From Sulfuricurvum sp. (lineage in GTDB: Bacteria; Campylobacterota; Campylobacteria; Campylobacterales; Sulfurimonadaceae): a stretch of DNA of 64,000 nt. The first letter of the stretch is position 1. The number at the start of each line of letters is the position of its first letter. The stretch spans positions 1 through 64,000 of the forward strand of contig JAGXFL010000003.1 of NCBI GenBank assembly GCA_024637295.1, read 5' to 3'. The notes under the pieces are model-generated. The model was not told the origin of the DNA, made no database searches, and worked only from the letters and a program-made list of their open reading frames with translations. A program made the position numbers and the translations under genes. Positions 20,343 through 32,409 of this stretch are shown piece after piece.

Positions 20343-21226
20343 ATATATTAATAGTTGAAAACGAGATTTATCTCGCGCAGAGTATCGCTTCCAAACTCAG
20401 CGATTTAAGTCATAATTGCGATATTAGCAGTTCAACCAAAGAAGCACTCAAGGGTATCCCCTACGATGTCGTTCTTCTCTCTACAAACATCAATGGACAT
20501 GATATTTATCCCGTCATCGAAGCCTATAAAGATGCCGTTGTTATCTTGATGGTCTCTTATGTAAGTAATGACACCGTTTCCAAGCCTTTGGCTGCAGGGG
20601 CAAAGGATTATATTCTTAAACCGTTTATGATCGAGGAACTCATCCGTAAAATTCAGCACTTTCAAAATCATGAACGCCTACGCCACCAAAATCAAACACA
20701 TGAACGTTACTTAACCCATATGTTTAACGGTATCAAAATCGATGAAGATTTCGACAAGACAGAACTTCCTGTCATGATATGCAGCGGATACCAAAAATAT
20801 GCCGATGCTTTTGCATTCCGATACGCCCAACACAAAGACCAAACACTTCAGTTTATCTCTCTTGGTTCCAGTAAAGCGCTTCAAGATATCGCTTTATTAC
20901 CCGTGCATAATATCCTCTATCTTACTGATTTTCAAAACTTCAAAAAAAGTGATTACAAGGCATTGTTTGAACTGTTAGAAAAACGTCAATGTATCATTTC
21001 CAGCACCGATTACATCGATCACGCCCCATTTCGTATGATTGAGGTCAAGAGTGAAAATCATTTGTTTGATCAAGGCGAGATATTACCAATTGAAGAATAC
21101 GTTAAATACATCATGATCAATTTTCAAAACCGTTTTCCAGACACAGAATTATCCAAAAAACTAGGTATTTCACGAAAAAGCTTGTGGGAGAAAAGAAAAA
21201 AGTATGGCATCGTCAAGAAAAAATAG
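20339..21226 (+). CDS. Atypical orphan response regulator, HP1021/Cj1608 type
   Basis: A 295-residue protein. Residues 1-~120 form a receiver fold that keeps the ILKPF lysine region but has Ser48 where the phospho-accepting Asp should be (DVVLLSTN). The middle part (~140-250) looks like a shrunken NtrC-type AAA+ remnant with no Walker A. The C terminus (~265-292) is a Fis-type helix-turn-helix. Size, architecture and position directly after ispDF match the Helicobacter HP1021 / Campylobacter Cj1608 family, regulators described as phosphorylation-independent and linked to redox, metabolism and the replication origin. The start is the ATG at 20339, overlapping the ispDF stop as ATGA; an upstream in-frame TTG is less likely. 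Confidence 0.87.
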   Translation: MNILIVENEIYLAQSIASKLSDLSHNCDISSSTKEALKGIPYDVVLLSTNINGHDIYPVIEAYKDAVVILMVSYVSNDTVSKPLAAGAKDYILKPFMIEELIRKIQHFQNHERLRHQNQTHERYLTHMFNGIKIDEDFDKTELPVMICSGYQKYADAFAFRYAQHKDQTLQFISLGSSKALQDIALLPVHNILYLTDFQNFKKSDYKALFELLEKRQCIISSTDYIDHAPFRMIEVKSENHLFDQGEILPIEEYVKYIMINFQNRFPDTELSKKLGISRKSLWEKRKKYGIVKKK

Positions 21227-22394
21227 AGCTCTTCATATTGACAGAGAGGCTCTTTCTGCCCTCTCATTACTTAAGTCGGGTATCCTTTCCCCCGTACAAG
21301 AACTCATGAATGAGCAGCAATGTTCACAAGTGCTTCAAAGCGGTATGTTTAATGGAAGTACATTTCCCTTTCCTCTTATTCTTTCTCCCAGCGGCAAGAC
21401 CAATGAAAGTGTCTTGTTAAGTGCACAACAAGGAGAGATACTTAATCTTATCTGTGAGCAAGAGATCGTCGGTGAAATTTGTGTCGATGAAGTCTTTGCG
21501 ATTGATCCCGCAAAACGTTTACAGCAAATATACGGGACCGAAGATCTCTCACATCCAGGAGTAAATGCCACTTTCAAACGCCTTGGCAAATATGCTATTT
21601 GTGGTCACTACTCCATAGATGTCAGCCCAATTACTTCTATACGCCAAACCATTAAAGACGCACAAGACCAAATTGGGGCAAAACATACAACGGCTATTTT
21701 CATGGCAGCAAATCCCCTTCATCGCGCCCATGAACGTCTCATTCGACAAAGTCTAGAACGTACCGATTTAATTGTTATCTTTTTACTCAAACCTTACAAT
21801 AATACCGATTTAAACTATGAGCTTCGGCATGAAGTCCTTCAGTTTTTCATTAAAAACTATCTCCCTTTTAGTCGAGTCATTGTCGTTCCACTTGAAAACA
21901 GTTATATTTTTGCGGGCAGTAATGAAGTCATATTAGATGCTATTGTCGCTAAAAATTATGGCTGTGATCGTCTGATGATAGGACAAAACCATGCCGGTAT
22001 CGGAATGTATTATGACCGAAACGCTAATAAATCAGTAATCGATCGTATGAGAGGGATCAACATTGAAGTCTCTATGTCCAGCGAATACGTTTACTGTAAT
22101 ATGTGTAAAACACTTGTAAGTATTCAAACCTGCCCCCATGGACACCATCACCACATCTCTTACCACTCTGAATCAATCCTTGAACTCATGAAACAAGGTC
22201 TCCTTCCCCCTGCCGTACTCGTACGTAAAGAGATCTCATCACTGATCGTTTCCTCTTTATATCCGGATCGATTTAAAAACTTGGCAAAACTTTACTATGA
22301 CATCATGCCCGTTAATGGACTGCTTGAAGAGCACAGTGAAACAGACTTTTATGTCGAACTCATGAAACTATATCAGACTACCTCACTTACCTAA
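21204..22394 (+). CDS. ATP-sulfurylase-family protein with altered active site
   Basis: A 396-residue protein of the ATP sulfurylase fold: PUA-like N-terminal part, then a nucleotidyltransferase core with NPLHRAHE (170-177) and a zinc site like that of some prokaryotic ATP sulfurylases (C298-x2-C301, C310-P-H312). However, the sulfate/ATP-binding QxRN is MAAN (167-170), and the GRDHAG loop is GQNHAG (260-265). These changes remove the Gln and Arg of the QxRN motif, so ordinary sulfate adenylyltransferase activity is doubtful. The gene overlaps the upstream regulator by 23 bp and is followed by pgpA, an order I recall in Campylobacter jejuni (Cj1607-Cj1610). Function unknown. Confidence 0.8.
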   Translation: MASSRKNRALHIDREALSALSLLKSGILSPVQELMNEQQCSQVLQSGMFNGSTFPFPLILSPSGKTNESVLLSAQQGEILNLICEQEIVGEICVDEVFAIDPAKRLQQIYGTEDLSHPGVNATFKRLGKYAICGHYSIDVSPITSIRQTIKDAQDQIGAKHTTAIFMAANPLHRAHERLIRQSLERTDLIVIFLLKPYNNTDLNYELRHEVLQFFIKNYLPFSRVIVVPLENSYIFAGSNEVILDAIVAKNYGCDRLMIGQNHAGIGMYYDRNANKSVIDRMRGINIEVSMSSEYVYCNMCKTLVSIQTCPHGHHHHISYHSESILELMKQGLLPPAVLVRKEISSLIVSSLYPDRFKNLAKLYYDIMPVNGLLEEHSETDFYVELMKLYQTTSLT

Positions 22395-22403
22395 GGCGTA
22401 TCT

Positions 22404-22913
22404 ATGAAACTCAACTGGTTCTTTCTTACCCTCTTTTACAGCGGACTCTCTCCCAAAGCTCCTGGAACTATAGGAACACTTGTTTCCCTACCAATCGGAG
22501 TAGCTATTTTAATTTTTTTGGGACCGCAAACACTTTTTTTGCTTACTTTACTCATCACACTCATCGCCATCAAAAGCATTGATCGCTATGAAGCACACAG
22601 CGGTATACATGATAATCAAAAAATTGTGATTGATGAACTCGCAGGTATGTGGTTTGCCCTCAGCATCGCTCCTGGTGTTATGTTTTCTCTGAATGATTTA
22701 TCAGTATGGGGAAATGGTATCGCCGTTCAAATTCTGCTTAGCTTTATCTTCTTCCGTATTTATGATATCAAAAAACCCTCTATCATCGGACGTATCGACC
22801 GTAATACAAAAGGGGGATGGGGAGTGATGGGTGACGATATTATTGCAGGATTTGCAGCAGGAATTTCTTCTGCTTTAGTATGGCAACTGATTCTTAAACT
22901 ATCAGCTTTTTAA
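22404..22913 (+). CDS. pgpA: Phosphatidylglycerophosphatase A
   Basis: A 169-residue integral membrane phosphatase that dephosphorylates phosphatidylglycerol phosphate to phosphatidylglycerol. It shows the PgpA signatures SPKAPGTIGTL near the N terminus and IVIDELAGMW in the middle, plus DDIIAGFAAG near the C terminus, with about four membrane helices. It follows the ATP-sulfurylase-like gene by 9 bp and ends the ispDF operon. Its last 4 bp overlap the 3' end of the convergent diguanylate cyclase gene, leaving no room for a separate terminator. Confidence 0.93.
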   Translation: MKLNWFFLTLFYSGLSPKAPGTIGTLVSLPIGVAILIFLGPQTLFLLTLLITLIAIKSIDRYEAHSGIHDNQKIVIDELAGMWFALSIAPGVMFSLNDLSVWGNGIAVQILLSFIFFRIYDIKKPSIIGRIDRNTKGGWGVMGDDIIAGFAAGISSALVWQLILKLSAF

Positions 22914-24718
22914 GCCATAATCCGGTTTCGCCCTCCGTTTTTAGCAGCATAAAGTTTCTCATCGGCTCGATGGAATAGATCGTCCGCTTCTTCTACAGGA
23001 TTAAACTCCGCAACGCCAATAGAACAGGTTAAATTATGAATCGTATCAAAATTTTGTACCTCTATCCTTTGACGTAAAGCTTCCGCCATCTTAATGGCTG
23101 AAGGTAATGGAGTATCCGGTAGTAAAATCATAAACTCTTCCCCTCCCCATCTCGCAACAACATCGCTTTCACGAATTTGCGTACGTAATAGCATACTTAA
23201 TGCTTTGAGGACATCATCCCCGATCAAATGCCCAAATCGGTCATTGATCTGTTTAAAATGGTCAATATCCAATAAAAGAATAGAAATAGGTCTCTTGTAT
23301 CTACGTGATACCGAAAGTGAATGCTCTAATATTTTATCAAACTCAAAACGATTCGCCACTTGAGTCAATCTATCCAATGTTGCTAACTCATTAAGTTGAG
23401 TAATATCACTAAAAACGACAACATAACGAAGTTGTTCATCATACTCCATCATCTGAGCATCAACTGTAAATATCGATGTTTTGCCATTCACAGTCAATCT
23501 GGCTTTATGCTCCATCTCTTTGTGGGCTACGATATACTCAGTCCATCGCATTCCATTCATTTCAGGCTGTAGATAGTTGTCGGTCTCCGTAGTTTCAAAG
23601 AGATAGCAAATGCATTCATAATCTTTACGAAAATCTTCTAAAGTTTTATAATGCAAAAAATCAAAAAAAGCATTATTGACATAAATAATCTTTTTTCCAT
23701 CTGTTACAACAATAATATTTTTTTGTGAATTCAAGATTGTAGCAACGTATTCATCCTGAAAATTCATCTTCTTCATAATACGTTCAAAAACAATCTCTAG
23801 TGTCACTACCAATATAACAACGATCAATAAGGTAAGTAATATACTCCCCAGAATTATTTGTATTATTTCCTTATTCTTACCGCTTACATCATTAAAACAT
23901 AGCAACATGCCCACTGGCTTATGCTCACTATTTTCAAGATGTACATGAAAAACATCATAATTTTTATTTTCCAAACTTATAGAACGCTCATTGAAACCAG
24001 GGTTGTCTTTTACATAAGCATCAACCAATGGAACTTGACTCGGGCTTAGATGACTAAAACGATATCCGTGGTATGAGATCGGGTATTTTAAAGCATCCGC
24101 TGCAGCCATATGTGTCTCATGCAGCATAAAAAGGGTCTCAATTTTATTTGCTTTGAATAGTTTGCCCATAATATAATCAGGGTCAACTCCAAACTCTACT
24201 GCCCCGATATATCTATTATGCTCAACAAAAGGGACTACAACACGATAAGCAATCCCTTCAATACCTCCTTCAAAGCCTTGTTGCGTTTCACGCAACTTAT
24301 GAACTTTTCGCAGCATTGGACGTCGTGACGCGATATCATCTCCAAATTTCTCTTTACGGTGCATTCGTAGAATAGATTTTCCATCGGGGGCATGAAACTG
24401 CATCAACATGAGATAAGGGTTTTCTTCTCTAAGGGTTTTGTAACGCGGAAGTGTAAGATTATAAAGTTTTTCGGTATCTTTATTGGTTATTGCTTCTTCT
24501 ACACCTTGGGAACGGACATTCGAATAAGCTCGATACGTATAAAAATATTTCAGATCCTCAGTGACAAGATCGTATCTGTTCTTAACGTCTTCAACTGCGA
24601 CACGCTTATTTTCATCTGAACGTTGATTTTCATGATGAATATAATAACTTGTAAATATTATTGATAAGAAGATCACAAAAAGTGAAATAAAAACTTGTAC
24701 TTTTCGCTTAAAATTCAT
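22910..24718 (-). CDS. Membrane diguanylate cyclase with dCache-like, PAS and GGDEF domains
   Basis: A 602-residue sensor. TM1 is about 9-27. The periplasmic domain (~30-285) has a dCache_3-like pattern (HAPDGKSILRMH, FGDDIASRRPM, GFEGGIEGIAYRVVVP), the type that binds small molecules. TM2 is about 288-312. A PAS domain (~325-440) and a GGDEF domain follow, with DIDHFK, GGEEF and an RESD I-site. It should synthesise cyclic di-GMP and be product-controlled. Unlike the other two membrane cyclases here it has no CxxCH. It lies just downstream of the molybdoenzyme accessory genes on the same strand (20 bp gap), so it may belong to that transcript. Confidence 0.88.
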   Translation of the reverse strand: MNFKRKVQVFISLFVIFLSIIFTSYYIHHENQRSDENKRVAVEDVKNRYDLVTEDLKYFYTYRAYSNVRSQGVEEAITNKDTEKLYNLTLPRYKTLREENPYLMLMQFHAPDGKSILRMHRKEKFGDDIASRRPMLRKVHKLRETQQGFEGGIEGIAYRVVVPFVEHNRYIGAVEFGVDPDYIMGKLFKANKIETLFMLHETHMAAADALKYPISYHGYRFSHLSPSQVPLVDAYVKDNPGFNERSISLENKNYDVFHVHLENSEHKPVGMLLCFNDVSGKNKEIIQIILGSILLTLLIVVILVVTLEIVFERIMKKMNFQDEYVATILNSQKNIIVVTDGKKIIYVNNAFFDFLHYKTLEDFRKDYECICYLFETTETDNYLQPEMNGMRWTEYIVAHKEMEHKARLTVNGKTSIFTVDAQMMEYDEQLRYVVVFSDITQLNELATLDRLTQVANRFEFDKILEHSLSVSRRYKRPISILLLDIDHFKQINDRFGHLIGDDVLKALSMLLRTQIRESDVVARWGGEEFMILLPDTPLPSAIKMAEALRQRIEVQNFDTIHNLTCSIGVAEFNPVEEADDLFHRADEKLYAAKNGGRNRIMA

Positions 24719-24738: not shown

Positions 24739-25230
24739 CTAGATCATCATCGGCTCATCAGTAGGCTCAATCTCTTCATAATCTTCAGCGATTTGATCTA
24801 ACAATTTCTGTGTCTTTTTGATTTTAGCGATATTTTCTTCAAAAATAGATTTTGAGGCTGGAAATGCCTGTGCAAGTTCTGTATAGATCAAAATACGTCC
24901 GCCAAAGTGACGATTAAACTCATCAAATGCTCCGCGAAGATATGCTTTACGGGTTGTATGTCTAAAAAGGGCTTGAATCATTCGCTTACGTTCTTTAATC
25001 GGAATCGATTCATCGATAGCTTCTGCAACACGTTTGATATCCAAGCGCGATAAATAAACACCACTGTGATACGGTGCTAGAAGTTTATCCGTTAATTCAT
25101 CTACAAATCCTGGGACTGGCTCATTATCAGGGTTATTGTCACTACTTGTATCACAGTCTGCCGTATCGCATTTATCACGGACAAATTGGTCAAATTCTGC
25201 TCTTAAATCACTAAAATCACTTTTATTCAT
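24739..25230 (-). CDS. Unknown acidic protein at the end of the molybdoenzyme operon
   Basis: A 163-residue soluble protein that I do not recognise. It has an acidic, low-complexity stretch with two Cys at about 21-42 (DKCDTADC then Ser/Asp/Asn), a mostly helical basic middle (IKERKRMIQALFRHTTRKAYLRG) and an acidic C terminus (EDYEEIEPTDEP). There is no signal peptide or membrane segment. Its start overlaps the previous gene's end by 8 bp, tying it to the operon encoding the TorD-like chaperone and poly-ferredoxin. A role in assembly or regulation of the molybdoenzyme is inference from position only. Confidence 0.7.
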   Translation of the reverse strand: MNKSDFSDLRAEFDQFVRDKCDTADCDTSSDNNPDNEPVPGFVDELTDKLLAPYHSGVYLSRLDIKRVAEAIDESIPIKERKRMIQALFRHTTRKAYLRGAFDEFNRHFGGRILIYTELAQAFPASKSIFEENIAKIKKTQKLLDQIAEDYEEIEPTDEPMMI

Positions 25231-25669
25231 AGTACTCTCCTGTAGTTAGTTCATAAAAATAGCGTGTCATTGAATTGAGTGCTATGTCATCTTGGAAATC
25301 GTCACTTTGCGCAAACTTTTCCAATGCCGAAGGCATAATGAGTTCCCCGATAAGCTTTCCATCCACGATACGGATAAAATCACAATATCCCGAGGCTTGA
25401 GCTGTACTGGAAGCATCATCCAGCAGTCCAAATACCTCTTCTTGATACTCCATTCCTATCACAGCACCACTTAGCTTAGAACTGCGCATTTGAGAAATCG
25501 TAAACGTAACATCATCGGGGCGTATATTCATCGGAATGATCATAGCATTGACATCATTACCTTTAAACAGCTTGTTAACTATCGCCGAGAAACGGTTGCT
25601 GTGCGCTTCTTCTGCTATGTATCCATAAAGTGCTGTTTCCACTGTTATGGAATTATCATTATTCATCAT
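25223..25669 (-). CDS. Stand-alone AroE-like substrate-binding domain, catalytic residues missing
   Basis: A 148-residue cytoplasmic protein. By eye its pattern follows the N-terminal substrate-binding half of shikimate dehydrogenase: AHSNRF where AroE has AHSKSP, then a strand like that before the conserved VPFK, LLDDASSTAQASG like DELTERAALAG, and DGKLIGE where AroE has DGRLLGDNTD. The catalytic Lys (VPFKEE in AroE; GMEYQEE here) and Asp (NTDG) are missing, and there is no NADP-binding domain. It cannot be a dehydrogenase, so a binding or scaffold role is likely. TAATG couples it to the poly-ferredoxin gene; a second ATG at 25666 is also possible. Confidence 0.6.
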   Translation of the reverse strand: MMNNDNSITVETALYGYIAEEAHSNRFSAIVNKLFKGNDVNAMIIPMNIRPDDVTFTISQMRSSKLSGAVIGMEYQEEVFGLLDDASSTAQASGYCDFIRIVDGKLIGELIMPSALEKFAQSDDFQDDIALNSMTRYFYELTTGEYYE

Positions 25670-26763
25670 TATAACCCCCAAAGTTCACGAGCTTCTTCCT
25701 CTTCGAGGCGACAGCGGCGACAAATTTTTTCTCCACCGATTGAACTGAACAAACCATCACACTCATCACATCGACGCACCAAATACGTAGCCAGATTTTG
25801 AACTTTTGGAGCATACCACTCTTTCAAATTATACGATGATGAAAGTGTAATAGCATCCGGTTCACATACATCATGACACAAATGGCATTTAACACATAAA
25901 AAAGGATCAAAATCAACTTTCGAATTACGCATATCCGAAGTCAGCGCACCTGTAGGACAAATTCGATAACACATTTCACATGCCGTACAAAGTGACTCAT
26001 CTAATAACTTTTGTGACGTAAAGACAATTTTATCACTTTGGACAACATGAAACTCAGACGGTACATCAAAACGTTTCAGTGCGGTAAAAAAGAGTTTGCG
26101 TCGATCCGTTATTTTTTTAGTTCGCAATGCTTTGGTATGTGAACTATCCGTCGTATATTCTATAAATTCATCCGTAGTGCGTTGTATCTCTTTTTCAAAA
26201 TCACCGCGTGCTTTGCCAATACCTCGTAAATGAAAGTTCTTAAAAAAATCGCGTCGATCCGGTTTTTGATCCGCATCGTCGCAGTTTACATAAGCAATAT
26301 TTTCACATTGAACTGTGTATTTTGACTCTATAGCTTCCAGTAAATAATTACTGTTATCAACCGTAGCCGATATACTGGTTAGTATACTCTCTCCAATATC
26401 ACATCCGCCGCAATGTCCGGTATCAAGAACAACACCTTGCTTCATTTGAACAAATGAGATCAACTGCTCACTGCTTAACGCTGCGATACAAGGAATATTT
26501 TTTTGACAGGAAAGAATATTTTGCTCATCCGATGCAAATGAAAAGAAAAATTCAGTAGCACTAAAGTCATCAAGTTTTAATGCCTCCGCAGGGCATACAG
26601 CAACGCATCCTGCACATCCGACACATTGAGCTTGATTGATCGATGGAAGGCGTTCCGTGATGCTTATAGCTCCCGTAGGACATACATCACTGCAATGGGT
26701 GCAAATCGAATTGACACTCAGCGCTCGGACACATGAACTAGGAGACAGAATTAATAGACTCAT
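25669..26763 (-). CDS. Multi-cluster ferredoxin-like protein with C-terminal zinc ribbon
   Basis: A 364-residue cytoplasmic iron-sulfur protein. The N-terminal part holds two ferredoxin-like motifs (CTHCSDVCP, CVGCAGCVAVCP). A middle domain has a GHCGGC motif and scattered Cys. A second ferredoxin pair follows (CTACEMCYRICP, CVKCHLCHDVCE), and the C terminus has CDEC...CRRC, likely a zinc ribbon. There is no Tat signal or membrane helix. It could pass electrons to or from the operon's molybdoenzyme or help insert its clusters; the reaction is unknown. It overlaps the TorD-like gene by 4 bp (ATGA) and is coupled to the AroE-like gene by TAATG. Confidence 0.82.
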   Translation of the reverse strand: MSLLILSPSSCVRALSVNSICTHCSDVCPTGAISITERLPSINQAQCVGCAGCVAVCPAEALKLDDFSATEFFFSFASDEQNILSCQKNIPCIAALSSEQLISFVQMKQGVVLDTGHCGGCDIGESILTSISATVDNSNYLLEAIESKYTVQCENIAYVNCDDADQKPDRRDFFKNFHLRGIGKARGDFEKEIQRTTDEFIEYTTDSSHTKALRTKKITDRRKLFFTALKRFDVPSEFHVVQSDKIVFTSQKLLDESLCTACEMCYRICPTGALTSDMRNSKVDFDPFLCVKCHLCHDVCEPDAITLSSSYNLKEWYAPKVQNLATYLVRRCDECDGLFSSIGGEKICRRCRLEEEEARELWGL

Positions 26764-27383
26764 GGAGCTTTAGCTATATCCGTAGTCAAAGTTTCATTAT
26801 CGGATAAAATAAACTCCAATGCCATCTCAGCCGCATCATAATACAAAGGAGTACGGGACTCATATTTCATATTAATAAGATACATCGGTGCCCATTGAAG
26901 CAGATGGGTATTTAAAAAACGGTGCTGTACTGCTTGCAGTTCTGTAGCAGCATCAGTATCACCCTCTTGTGTCGCTTTCATTTGTGCTTGACACAAGTGA
27001 TGCATAAACTCAAGCTCAACCCCAATATGATCAGCAGATACAACACGTGCAACGGCATAATCTACAATAAAATCATAGGCACTGTATATATCGGTAACCG
27101 GGTTTGCTCCCCCTGTCTCAACCATTTGATCAGCACGGGTATAAAATGTCTCATAGGGGACTAAATGTAACAATGAAAGATTTGTGAAATCAGGATTCAA
27201 ATATTCTTCTAAAAGCTTTTGTGGGGCAACTGAAGTACGCTGTTCCCATTCGTTCCAATGGGGCAAAAACTCTAAAACGGTTTTATCATTCATAAGTGTA
27301 TTTAAAATTTCAACGTCAAGCTCCTGGAGCATTATCCGAGAAAGAAGTCCATAAATATTACTGCGTGCGGTGAGTTCATCCAT
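26760..27383 (-). CDS. TorD/DmsD-family chaperone for a Tat-exported molybdoenzyme
   Basis: A 207-residue, all-helical cytoplasmic protein with TorD-family features: an N-terminal RSNIYGLLSRI helix, Tyr- and Pro-containing loops in the middle, and DHIGVELEFMHHL, which matches the conserved D-H-(I/L)-x-x-E-L-x-F-M signature. Such chaperones bind the Tat signal and the apoprotein of the molybdoenzyme until cofactor insertion. It follows the 1130-residue catalytic subunit by 87 bp, which is its obvious client. AAAGGT serves as ribosome binding site. The specific subgroup cannot be told from sequence alone. Confidence 0.88.
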   Translation of the reverse strand: MDELTARSNIYGLLSRIMLQELDVEILNTLMNDKTVLEFLPHWNEWEQRTSVAPQKLLEEYLNPDFTNLSLLHLVPYETFYTRADQMVETGGANPVTDIYSAYDFIVDYAVARVVSADHIGVELEFMHHLCQAQMKATQEGDTDAATELQAVQHRFLNTHLLQWAPMYLINMKYESRTPLYYDAAEMALEFILSDNETLTTDIAKAP

Positions 27384-27470: not shown

Positions 27471-30400
27471 CTAAGACTTGATATGTACATCGTATGCAGA
27501 TGGGTCAAGAGATACCCATGGGCGCTTGATATGACGAGGGCGACGAATCGTAGAATTTGAATCCAATCCACGAGACAGCTGATCTCTCCATGCTTGATAA
27601 ACTTTTAGGTTGTTATCATAGTTGACAAAAATATCACCAATCTTATCACCTGGCTGAGCAGGTTCTAAGATAACTTTATGGTGCCAACAGTGCATACCTG
27701 AAATTGGATCCGGATGTGGAGCTGCTACGGCATTTTGCCATGAACCACTCAAGCCGTCCCACCAGATATTTTCAGAGTCACGATTATACTGAGCAAAACG
27801 TTCAGCCTTAAATCCTTTGATCCCCTCAACGTATTTGAGCTTACCGACTTTTCCATCCATTTGTAGCTCAGCCACAGGTACACCGAAACTATTGATACCT
27901 GATGTACCGCTATAGTCATCAATCTTTGTTTGTGCTCCTGCTTTACCGATATTTGCCGGTGATTCGTTAAGGAACTCTTTGTTACTCAAATCACGTGGTG
28001 CAGTAGACGGATCAATTTTTCCATCACTTACACCGTTTGGAATTGTCACGTGGTTTGTCAACTTCCAACGTCCACCATGATGTGAACACGCTAATGTTCC
28101 TGGCATAACACCTTCAGTTGGAACTGCCATAGCTACAAAATAACCGCTATCAAGACCAGAAACAGTATCCACAATCTTAACACGCATAGCATCACCACGT
28201 TTGAATCCAAGACGCTGTGCATCTTTGGTATAGATCCAAATAGGGTCATGGTTTTGCGAAATCTCCATCAAATGTTTTGAGTTCGCAGAACGTGTATGAA
28301 TGTTGTACGGTAAACGGAATACCGTGTTAAGAGCAAATGAGTTTTCCTCTTTCATGTACATGTGATTAACATGCGATACAAGATGAACCATCTCTGTTTT
28401 CTCTTTGTCATTACGCGGATAGAACGGCATTGCGTACTCTCTCCAATGCCAATCCGTAGCCCACTGTGTAAAGAACTCAAGCTTACGAGTAAGCGTTTCA
28501 AACCCTTCCATCTTTTTGCCGTCGATTTCAATACCGATTTTCTTCTCTTTGCCTTCATGGTCTTTTGCAGAAATAACACCTGCAGCACCAATGCTCATAG
28601 AGCCGGCATCAAACTTGTGCCCATGAGAGATGACTTCGCCATCTTCAAACTTAAGTTCGCGCTCCATTGCATTATAGATTTTATCTTCTTCCATCCATGC
28701 ACCGTGATCACGCAAATAGGCATAAACCGGGAATTCTTCTTTACTGTAACGTTCATCATTGATGGCAGTTTCTTTGAGTTTTGGCAAGTTGTCACCAAAT
28801 GCAGCATCATACCACTCAGCAATTGTTACCGGTTTACCTGGATGACGTTTGGACTCCCACATTTTTTTGATACCGAGACTACCGTCTGGATCGATGTAGT
28901 TTACACACATATCAAACCAGAACTCATTTTCTTCCCAAACCTCACCAAGACCTGCTTTGACGTGTGCTTCGAGAGTTGCTCGGTTAGGATTTTTCGCTTT
29001 CCAACCCGACTTTTCTAGTGCTACGCGCAATACCGGCTGACGGAAAGAGGTCCATCGTGCCGGGAATGTTGCCTCAGAGTGCTGGTCATGACGCTCACCT
29101 GCAAGTCCAACCGGAAGTACATAGTCCATATACCAGTTTGTCTCTGACCATACCGGAGAGAGATTCATAGTGAGTTCCATTTTTGTTTCGTCTTTAAGCA
29201 CTTCGATCCAACGGAAACCGTCCGGATTAATCCATACAGGGTTGTACATACGTGGGATATAAACTGCAAGTTTACTTGGAACTTTCAGTCCACGATCATT
29301 CCATTTTTTCTGCCATGCGGTATCCGTAAGAAGATGCGGTAACAAATACGACATTTCATAGGTTGACAATGGCCACTCAGGAGGCCAAGTAAGCTCATTC
29401 CATACTTTAATTTTTGGAACATCTGCTCCACCGGCACCCTGACCTACTGTTGAGCTTCCGCCCTTACCCGAAACAGAGATAACATGCCAATGGTGGAAGA
29501 ATGTACCACCCTCAGTACCGATAGCACCACGTAGACCAATACAAAAATAGGCCGCACGTCCACCCATCCAAGCACCACGGTTACCCGCAGCAGCTGCACG
29601 CCAAATATACGTAGAGATCGCATCCCCAGCCCATATAAACATCTCATACAATTTTTCAAGCTTGTAAGCAGGTACATGAGTCTCTTTGACCGCATACTCT
29701 AACGTATACGGAGCATACATATCTTTGAGAAGGTCCATATAATCATCAAAACCATTACCTGTTGGAGCTTTAGTGATTTGACCTTTTTGAAGCATAAAGT
29801 TCAAATGCTCTTGATCGTTCATCAAGGTTTCCCAGTTGAACCATTTTTTAACAAATTTTTTGTCTGTCATGTTTTCGTTCAAAATGCGGTTAGCCAAATA
29901 GAGATAGATAGCCGCTTCCGTACCAGGCCAAGCAGCGATCCATAGATCGGACATACCCGCAGAGTTGGACATACGAGGGTCCATTACGACCATCTTCGCA
30001 CCTTTTTTACGCGCATCTGCAATAAAACCGGCTGATTGTTGGAAATAGTGTCCAGCATCTGCTGCATGAGATGAATTCAAGAAAATCAATTTAGCATTTG
30101 CCCAATCCGGGCTCGTACGGTCATCATTTGCTGTCCAAATCGTTGGTGTACGACCATTTGATGAACAGATGTTTGTGTGAGAGTTATAAGAGTCAAGACC
30201 CAATGTTTCCCATACCTGTGGTACGAAACCGTTTTCATTCGGTCGTCCAACGTGAAACATTACTGATTTTTTCGAAAGGTCATCGCCTTTGCGAATCGTA
30301 TCCCCCATCTTTTTACCGATGGTAGTCATCGCTTCATCCCATGTAGTACGGATCCACTTACCCTCACCACGTTTAGAACCAGGTGCACGTTTAAGCGGGA

Positions 30401-30863
30401 ACGGGATACGATCCGGATCGTACATCTGCGATTGAACCGCATACCCTTTTGCACAGTTACGTCCACGAGAGCCTGGGTGTAATGGATTACCCATGTATTT
30501 TTTAACCGTAAATGTCTTTTTGTCGACCCATGCAGTCAAACCACATGAAGCTTCACAGTTTGAACATGCCGTTGGTACGATCATAAAATCGTTAACTAAA
30601 ATACCATCTGGATTTTCTTCACTCTGAACACCATGACGATCGATACCGCCACGTTTCCAATCCGTACCATCAAGCTCTTGGAAGCTATTCCATTGATCCA
30701 ACGGTGGATAAAATGAGAGGCTGTCAGGTGTATTGGTAAATTTGCTGTTCTCTACAGACTCTGCAGCAGCATCAGTTGAGAATACGCCCTTTACAATGGC
30801 AGCACCGGCAACCGTAAACGCGGCACCTTTTAAAAATGTTCTTCTACTTTCTAAATACATCAT
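27471..30863 (-). CDS. Periplasmic molybdopterin oxidoreductase catalytic subunit (Psr/Phs/Ttr/Soe-like)
   Basis: A 1130-residue member of the complex iron-sulfur molybdoenzyme family. The N terminus carries a Tat signal (SRRTFLKG, then a hydrophobic stretch). A [4Fe-4S] site is formed by C100-x2-C103-x3-C107 and C137. Cys233 (NICSSNGRT) is placed to ligate molybdenum, as in polysulfide, thiosulfate and tetrathionate reductases and sulfite dehydrogenases. The C-terminal molybdopterin-dinucleotide domain (~860-1130) is present. With the NrfD-type anchor and ferredoxin subunit upstream it forms a quinone-linked sulfur or related oxyanion enzyme; substrate and direction are not clear. Two ATGs begin the frame; the second (30860) has better spacing to AGAGG. 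Confidence 0.9.
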   Translation of the reverse strand: MMYLESRRTFLKGAAFTVAGAAIVKGVFSTDAAAESVENSKFTNTPDSLSFYPPLDQWNSFQELDGTDWKRGGIDRHGVQSEENPDGILVNDFMIVPTACSNCEASCGLTAWVDKKTFTVKKYMGNPLHPGSRGRNCAKGYAVQSQMYDPDRIPFPLKRAPGSKRGEGKWIRTTWDEAMTTIGKKMGDTIRKGDDLSKKSVMFHVGRPNENGFVPQVWETLGLDSYNSHTNICSSNGRTPTIWTANDDRTSPDWANAKLIFLNSSHAADAGHYFQQSAGFIADARKKGAKMVVMDPRMSNSAGMSDLWIAAWPGTEAAIYLYLANRILNENMTDKKFVKKWFNWETLMNDQEHLNFMLQKGQITKAPTGNGFDDYMDLLKDMYAPYTLEYAVKETHVPAYKLEKLYEMFIWAGDAISTYIWRAAAAGNRGAWMGGRAAYFCIGLRGAIGTEGGTFFHHWHVISVSGKGGSSTVGQGAGGADVPKIKVWNELTWPPEWPLSTYEMSYLLPHLLTDTAWQKKWNDRGLKVPSKLAVYIPRMYNPVWINPDGFRWIEVLKDETKMELTMNLSPVWSETNWYMDYVLPVGLAGERHDQHSEATFPARWTSFRQPVLRVALEKSGWKAKNPNRATLEAHVKAGLGEVWEENEFWFDMCVNYIDPDGSLGIKKMWESKRHPGKPVTIAEWYDAAFGDNLPKLKETAINDERYSKEEFPVYAYLRDHGAWMEEDKIYNAMERELKFEDGEVISHGHKFDAGSMSIGAAGVISAKDHEGKEKKIGIEIDGKKMEGFETLTRKLEFFTQWATDWHWREYAMPFYPRNDKEKTEMVHLVSHVNHMYMKEENSFALNTVFRLPYNIHTRSANSKHLMEISQNHDPIWIYTKDAQRLGFKRGDAMRVKIVDTVSGLDSGYFVAMAVPTEGVMPGTLACSHHGGRWKLTNHVTIPNGVSDGKIDPSTAPRDLSNKEFLNESPANIGKAGAQTKIDDYSGTSGINSFGVPVAELQMDGKVGKLKYVEGIKGFKAERFAQYNRDSENIWWDGLSGSWQNAVAAPHPDPISGMHCWHHKVILEPAQPGDKIGDIFVNYDNNLKVYQAWRDQLSRGLDSNSTIRRPRHIKRPWVSLDPSAYDVHIKS

Positions 30864-30871
30864 CTACCTCT

Positions 30872-31771
30872 TTAGCTCATGTTTAACAATTGTGGGATAA
30901 CTAACCATACGTGTTTGGTAATCCACAATCCGACCAACGCTGACACTGCAGCGATTTTCAACAAATAATACGATTTATCTTTGATACTTTTGCATACCAA
31001 TGCCATAGGGATCAAAAAGGCTACGATCTGTCCAAGCCAGAACATAAACGTATACTCACCGCCCTTTACAAATTCCAAAGTAGCGATCACTTCTTCTGCT
31101 TTCATCGGACCAAAAAACAGCTCTAACATGTACATAATAAACGCTGTACCGGCACTAAAGCCTAGGATTAGTGCTAGATCTTTTTTAATCGTGTCTGAAA
31201 ACTTGTTTCCGCCAACCAAAAGCATTGTTGCAGATCCTGCAAGGAAAGCGGCCAACATCATTTGAATTGACTCTGTAGGCATTTGCCACAATTCACGTGC
31301 CGTTGATTGTGCCATCAAACCAGCGGTGTACAAAGTAACCGGAACGGCTAAAACAACGCCATACACTAGTAATTTATCATACATAGCTTCGTCTTTTTTC
31401 ATATAGAGGAAATAGGCCATAGCCAAGATGATACCCACAAAGCCTGTTGCCAACCATGCACCGATCGTGATCATTGATGTCATGTGAGGGTAGAAAAAGA
31501 TATGCCAAAATCGAAACATCTGATGCAAATCAATAACGGTAAAAAATAAAAACAGGTGAATAAATACAATTGATATCACTACCGAAGGCAAACGGATAAA
31601 TCCGGTTTGTTCAGGATATTTTTTCAACAAATAAAAGGCGATGAAGATGATACCCGTACCGATACTTTTTGCCCACATGTTCATGGTGATAATCCAACCC
31701 CATACAATACCTGGAAGAGCTACGTCAAGCGTAACAACAGCATTGGTTGCTGCAATAATCTCGTGTGCCAT
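30872..31771 (-). CDS. NrfD/PsrC-family membrane anchor and quinone-reactive subunit
   Basis: A 299-residue integral membrane protein with about eight helices. It follows the NrfD/PsrC pattern, including the WGW segment after the first periplasmic turn and Glu/Asp-bearing helices in the membrane. It binds menaquinone and exchanges electrons with the ferredoxin subunit of the complex. It starts within the stop of the upstream ferredoxin gene (TAATG) and precedes the catalytic subunit by 8 bp, so B, C and A are made together. The order B-C-A is that of ttr-type operons rather than psrABC. Confidence 0.9.
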   Translation of the reverse strand: MAHEIIAATNAVVTLDVALPGIVWGWIITMNMWAKSIGTGIIFIAFYLLKKYPEQTGFIRLPSVVISIVFIHLFLFFTVIDLHQMFRFWHIFFYPHMTSMITIGAWLATGFVGIILAMAYFLYMKKDEAMYDKLLVYGVVLAVPVTLYTAGLMAQSTARELWQMPTESIQMMLAAFLAGSATMLLVGGNKFSDTIKKDLALILGFSAGTAFIMYMLELFFGPMKAEEVIATLEFVKGGEYTFMFWLGQIVAFLIPMALVCKSIKDKSYYLLKIAAVSALVGLWITKHVWLVIPQLLNMS

Positions 31772-32409
31772 TAGTGGTGTCCTCCTACAGGTAAATGAGT
31801 CAGGTTATTGAAAAGGTTGTGACCTTCACCACGGAATGATGCCAATGGGTTAAGAGTAACGTTACCGCCACCAACATAAAAGTGATGTGGATCTGTCCCT
31901 TTTTCAGGCTTGCGTACTTGAACGTTACCTTGGTGCTCTTGGATATACTTACTGATGTTAGACATTGGATCGTCCAAATCACCAAAGATATTAGCCTCTA
32001 CCGGACAAGCAACAACACACGACGGCATCATCGCACTGGCGATACGGTGTGCACAATACGTACATTTATCTGCCGTTTGTGTTTGAGGATCGATATAGAT
32101 AGCTCCGTACGGACATGCCATAACACATCCCGCACATCCGATACAACGATCTTTGTCAATATTCACGATACCGTTTTCAATGTAGTGCAATGCACTGACC
32201 GGACAAATACGCTCACAAGGCGCATTCGCACAGTGATTACAACGAAGAGGAGTAAATGTTCGTTTTGTTTCCGGAAAACTTCCTACATCCACATATTTTA
32301 CGCGAAGACGCCATGTACTAAGAGGAACTTCATTCTCTACTTTACATGCGATCTCACAGCCCTTACAACCCATACAAAGGCGAAGGTCTACCAAGAACCC
32401 TAATTGCAT
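31771..32409 (-). CDS. Four-cluster [4Fe-4S] electron-transfer subunit of the molybdoenzyme
   Basis: A 212-residue ferredoxin-type subunit with four Cys-rich motifs for [4Fe-4S] clusters: CMGCKGCEIAC, CNHC...CERICP, CIGCAGCVMACP and CTYC...CVVACP. It has no Tat signal, so it probably rides out with the Tat-bearing catalytic subunit, as described for related enzymes. It relays electrons between the molybdenum subunit and the membrane quinone subunit. AAGGAG precedes the ATG at good spacing. It is the first gene of an operon running to at least 24739, with a 228-bp intergenic region in front. Confidence 0.92.
   Translation of the reverse strand: MQLGFLVDLRLCMGCKGCEIACKVENEVPLSTWRLRVKYVDVGSFPETKRTFTPLRCNHCANAPCERICPVSALHYIENGIVNIDKDRCIGCAGCVMACPYGAIYIDPQTQTADKCTYCAHRIASAMMPSCVVACPVEANIFGDLDDPMSNISKYIQEHQGNVQVRKPEKGTDPHHFYVGGGNVTLNPLASFRGEGHNLFNNLTHLPVGGHH

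Follow-up and report, generated by a model that had tools for sequence, protein, structure and literature searches.

Why does an operon for a Tat-exported molybdoenzyme encode half of a shikimate dehydrogenase? We interrogated the window, by which we mean the whole 64,000-nucleotide stretch of Sulfuricurvum sp. DNA, in order to understand the identity and role of a small ORF (P0001) that raises this question. The ORF was found as the initial annotation gave it, running from 25669 to 25223 on the minus strand and encoding 148 aa, and we refer to the family to which it belongs as AroE*. Its claimed likeness to the N-terminal half of shikimate dehydrogenase (AroE) is borne out by sequence and fold. 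Pfam PF08501 (Shikimate_dh_N) matches the ORF at E=3.7e-7 with 30.7 bits (curated cut-off 27), the same span is matched by 12 NCBIfam shikimate-dehydrogenase models, and Aquifex AroE is its PDB sequence match (8.5e-6). When modelled with AlphaFold2 without templates (pLDDT 84.8), the protein has the AroE N-domain as its best structural match, as the initial annotation had anticipated: Foldseek ranks 2hk9_B (AroE) best (E=5.8e-10, TM 0.72), VIA-align gives Z 16.0 to 4k28 over 128 residues, and the top-ranking folds are shikimate dehydrogenases throughout. The Pfam, PDB and fold matches together rule out a chance likeness. The ORF is thus a true AroE substrate-binding domain and belongs to the shikimate-dehydrogenase superfamily by fold and descent. 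One detail did not hold: the "AHS" pattern proposed as the counterpart of AroE HSxSP is off by one residue in the alignment, where AroE H-S-x-S-P falls on S24-N25-R26-F27-S28.

Although it descends from AroE, AroE* is not a fragment or pseudogene of the normal enzyme. In a maximum-likelihood tree, the sampled AroE* sequences form one clade, which a 100/100 branch separates from 19 true AroE proteins belonging to the order. A complete, normal AroE is encoded separately in the window's genome (G000:C2), so the AroE* gene is not needed for aromatic amino-acid synthesis. The truncated AroE* of the window's genus is also under strong purifying selection, with a median dN/dS of 0.083, next to 0.064 for TorD and 0.085 for next163, the gene that follows it.

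As a shikimate dehydrogenase enzyme, AroE* fails in its catalytic residues, its substrate residues and its cofactor domain. As the reference for the active site we took the same 19 true AroE, all of them identical at the compared positions. In the window protein, catalytic Lys65 is replaced by Gln76 and catalytic Asp102 by Met112, so that both residues are indeed missing as first proposed, and the shikimate-binding residues S14, S16, N59, T61 and N86 are replaced by N25, F27, V70, G72 and D97. Across the family, Lys65 is found in 0/158 members and Asp102 in 6/158, Pro63 has become Glu in 156 of the 158 and Asn86 has become Asp in 146, Ser16 is a hydrophobic residue in nearly all, and the Rossmann glycine motif GAGG(T/S)A is mostly gone. 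A different signature is conserved across groups, consisting of N48-I49, D53, S64, E74 with Y/F75, and D97. N48, I49 and D53 are near invariant across families; E74 differs in the single g17 member and the single f13 member, and D97 differs in f8. Cys96 is invariant in Sulfurimonadaceae AroE* and absent from the f8 members. Since E74 and D97 occupy positions that hold the substrate in AroE, the old cleft appears, from the homologous positions, to have been rebuilt.

The AroE* family is wider and older than the window's genus. Relatives are present in 176 of 200 genomes of the window's taxonomic family, and a profile search across the order recovered them in further families too. A scan of ~85,000 species, which required near-exact short motifs so that distant relatives could escape it, returned 144 loci; the 80 of them that were listed all carry titles of Campylobacterota or of unassigned MAGs. 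Most genera of the window's taxonomic family have an AroE* of 230-285 aa that contains both AroE domains. For a 252-aa member, the model (pLDDT 94.8) aligns with entire shikimate dehydrogenases at Z ~24, and the AroE C-terminal Pfam domain is recognised in one member at 1e-4, showing that the Rossmann domain is present in the long relatives, in degenerate form. The claim that there is no NADP domain is therefore correct for the 148-aa window protein and its genus but not for the family, most of which keeps the degenerate domain.

Using a tree of 65 loci built from TorD, the polyferredoxin and next163, we asked how often the second domain has been dropped. Plain parsimony gives six changes between long and short AroE*, well-supported branches force at least five changes to the short form, and reading the tree with no regain allowed gives seven losses. 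The nucleotide-binding domain has thus been lost at least five times and probably seven, indicating that its absence is a repeated later loss rather than a defining trait of AroE*. Every short form retains the N-domain. The short proteins of the window's genus also share a C-terminal helix (Table 1), which AlphaFold2 places at 135-141 in the window protein with low confidence; it is probably the last AroE helix, remaining after deletion of the Rossmann core.

Table 1 Features of the molybdoenzyme operon and of AroE* in the window
Feature	Position	Strand	Description	Basis or remark
next163	24739..25230	-	163 aa; constant partner downstream of AroE*	no Pfam family match
AroE* (P0001)	25223..25669	-	148 aa; degenerate shikimate-dehydrogenase substrate-binding domain	Pfam PF08501, AlphaFold2 fold
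AroE* residues 131-146	25232..25279	-	C-terminal helix conserved in genus	C-termini of 30 species
AroE* D97	25379..25381	-	replaces AroE substrate-binding Asn N86	
AroE* residues 74-76	25442..25450	-	E-Y-Q, replacing the AroE P-H-K loop with the catalytic Lys	
AroE* residues 48-53	25511..25528	-	NIRPDD, family hallmark; end of strand 2 / start of helix 2	
Polyferredoxin	25669..26763	-	364 aa; several 4Fe-4S motifs	
TorD	26760..27383	-	TorD/DmsD-type chaperone (Nitrate_red_del)	
Catalytic subunit	27471..30863	-	1130 aa; molybdopterin subunit, PsrA/PhsA-like	Tat signal SRRTFLKG
NrfD	30872..31771	-	NrfD-type membrane anchor	
Iron-sulfur subunit	31771..32409	-	4Fe-4S electron-transfer subunit, TtrB/ArrB-like	

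The genes of the operon are read on the minus strand in the order iron-sulfur subunit, NrfD, catalytic subunit, TorD, polyferredoxin, AroE* and next163. Adjacent genes overlap or lie at most 8 bases apart, except for 87 bases between the catalytic subunit and TorD. The proposed coupling of AroE* to the polyferredoxin corresponds to a 1-base overlap of stop and start (TAATG) with GGGGG upstream, and next163 begins within the AroE* gene, in an 8-base overlap with AGGAG ahead. No signal peptide was seen on the 364-aa polyferredoxin. Cys233 of the catalytic subunit aligns with Cys173 of Thermus PsrA, the Mo ligand of that enzyme, making Cys233 a probable Mo ligand as well; 16 loci spread over the group preserve both this Cys and the Tat motif. 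We considered whether next163 might be the split-off C-terminal half of AroE and rejected this, because the long, Rossmann-bearing AroE* likewise precede next163. next163 is found in nearly every cassette, including those without AroE*, and it may be the more central factor of the two.

The surroundings of the operon hold further genes. A diguanylate cyclase with dCache_3 and PAS domains (22910-24718, minus strand) lies 20 bases downstream of the cassette, and ATP sulfurylase (sat; 21204-22394, plus strand) lies just past the operon with pgpA, ispDF and a response regulator. Other families (L085, L102) also have the sat group close to the cassette, and this ancient gene order may be a clue to the sulfur substrate of the molybdoenzyme. 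Between the catalytic subunit and TorD, the operon of the f8 genomes (L102, L103, L104, L105, L106, L115) includes a small gene for a c-type cytochrome-like protein (CxxCH), encoded on the other strand.

We examined whether AroE* is linked to the enzyme beyond the window. The order TorD, polyferredoxin, AroE*, next163 is constant across families, and the occurrence of this cassette follows that of a single Tat-exported PsrA/PhsA-like molybdoenzyme among Campylobacterota of the sulfur type. Among 397 genomes of the phylum, the catalytic subunit was found in 84 and the polyferredoxin in 85, and the two lists are nearly identical. In 40 genomes picked across groups, every genome with AroE* also had the molybdoenzyme. 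G241 and G070 depart from the constant association, at contig ends. The cassette stands beside the enzyme genes in most genera. One large genus has it far from them (~170 kb in G099), and another has AroE*-next163, the polyferredoxin and the enzyme on three contigs; co-occurrence is kept in both. Conversely, the near-complete genomes G038, G050 and G138, from three genera, contain neither AroE* nor the molybdoenzyme. The neighbourhood predicted in the initial annotation is thus what we observe, with AroE* homologues adjoining TorD and the polyferredoxin and co-occurring with the molybdoenzyme throughout the group. At one locus with separated cassette and enzyme genes, the iron-sulfur subunit is directly preceded by a moeA-like gene (L224:3791-5029).

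The association has further exceptions. The f4 genomes G431, G432 and G328 contain the enzyme, TorD, the polyferredoxin and next163 and lack AroE*; in this clade of three genomes the polyferredoxin now adjoins next163, and no AroE* relocated elsewhere was found in them with an f4-specific model. In the incomplete MAG G166 (L221:5093-9584), TorD is followed by next163, and the polyferredoxin and AroE* are missing there, reflecting either a true joint loss or an assembly error. These genomes show that AroE* cannot be strictly required, and it is not essential to the molybdoenzyme system. In G180 (L219:7899-11313), the catalytic subunit is split between two reading frames and no cassette lies close by; with unread bases in the contig, this may be an error.

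What, then, does AroE* do? We consider it fairly likely that it is a cytoplasmic pseudoenzyme that helps to mature one Tat-exported molybdoenzyme. A cytoplasmic location is suggested by its lack of a signal peptide, and a role in maturation by the constant company that it keeps. A descendant of shikimate dehydrogenase that has lost catalysis, AroE* would serve as an accessory protein in maturation or assembly dedicated to this enzyme, alongside TorD, the polyferredoxin and next163. Its partner is most likely a protein: the substrate-binding domain would bind either a protein partner from the cassette or the apo-enzyme, and this binding would help or check cofactor loading ahead of Tat export. 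The earlier proposal that a metabolic fold was reused as a binding or assembly factor fits a protein that is conserved under selection without its active site, the role being a putative one that some genomes with the enzyme do without. Taken together, this suggests a metabolic enzyme turned by evolution into a dedicated assembly helper. It is about as likely as not that AroE* represents a new class of molybdoenzyme maturation factor made from a shikimate dehydrogenase, in which the cleft now serves to bind the apo-enzyme, a helper or the cofactor; the second domain would then have been shed independently in many lineages to leave a minimal adaptor.

The main rival to this maturation role is ligand sensing, in which the remodelled cleft would bind part of the cofactor or a sulfur metabolite and gate assembly or activity of the enzyme. 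The acidic residues conserved in the former cleft could just as well point to a small ligand, E74, Y/F75 and D97 are conserved at shikimate-binding positions of AroE, and the Sulfurimonadaceae add the invariant Cys96. However, f8 members do without both D97 and Cys96, and each loss of the second domain removes half of the AroE cleft, so we regard a sensor as rather unlikely. The same acidic residues, along with the Rossmann fold retained in long AroE*, could also speak for a novel enzymatic activity. Yet a domain dropped at least five times and a glycine motif mostly lost leave no family-wide dinucleotide chemistry, and we hold such an activity to be highly improbable.

It is also very unlikely that AroE* is a structural subunit leaving the cytoplasm with the folded enzyme. 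Signal-less electron-transfer subunits are exported by Tat in this hitch-hiking manner, and the AroE* gene adjoins the enzyme genes in most genera, but AroE* remains with TorD and the polyferredoxin where the enzyme genes have moved away, and those genes are intact in the clade that lost it. The repeated shedding of a domain, and the one case in which AroE* was lost altogether, might instead suggest a decaying, functionless relic carried along in the operon. This reading is largely refuted by the dN/dS of the truncated form, and the long conservation of the signature and the maintenance of AroE* after separation of cassette and enzyme also speak against it, leaving it barely tenable.

Most of what is understood about how complex iron-sulfur molybdoenzymes mature concerns chaperones of the TorD/NarJ type. 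An additional conserved factor, quite different in descent and tied to one enzyme of vent and sediment bacteria of the sulfur type, would point to an undescribed maturation step. AroE* also offers a natural series from enzyme to adaptor within one cassette, from the two-domain pseudoenzyme through the one-domain remnant to full loss. Its function can thus be tested in a comparison of lineages in which AroE* is long, short or absent.

We know of no described molybdoenzyme system with an AroE-like part, and our search of the open-access literature found no description of one, in agreement with the initial annotation. By fold, the closest relatives are AroE and its paralogues YdiB, Ael1 and HI0607, which have the substrate-binding fold in common with AroE* and, for long AroE*, the Rossmann domain as well. 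AroE* differs from AroE in its replaced catalytic Lys/Asp and shikimate-binding residues, its mostly lost glycine motif and its molybdoenzyme context, and in the window it also lacks the second domain. Like TorD, DmsD and NarJ, AroE* is a probable accessory of one Tat-exported molybdoenzyme, and it is encoded beside a TorD; however, the TorD family is all-helical and unrelated to the alpha/beta model of AroE*, and the window protein has no Pfam match to the Nitrate_red_del (TorD) domain. DUF3305 and DUF3306 are encoded by two small genes beside dmsD-fdh operons, with chaperone and ferredoxin neighbours, and are described as putative membrane proteins (PMC4464133). They are unrelated in sequence to AroE* and next163, and we rejected homology because neither gave a Pfam match to them, AroE* up to E=1 and next163 up to E=10. 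NapF and NapD/NapL of NapA are, like AroE*, accessory genes of a periplasmic molybdoenzyme, and some of them are optional (PMC10609526). AroE* has a different fold, serves a different enzyme and contains no iron-sulfur motif. Nevertheless NapF, a cytosolic polyferredoxin that is not always present and is implicated in NapA maturation before Tat export (PMC10609526), is the nearest precedent in role for AroE*.
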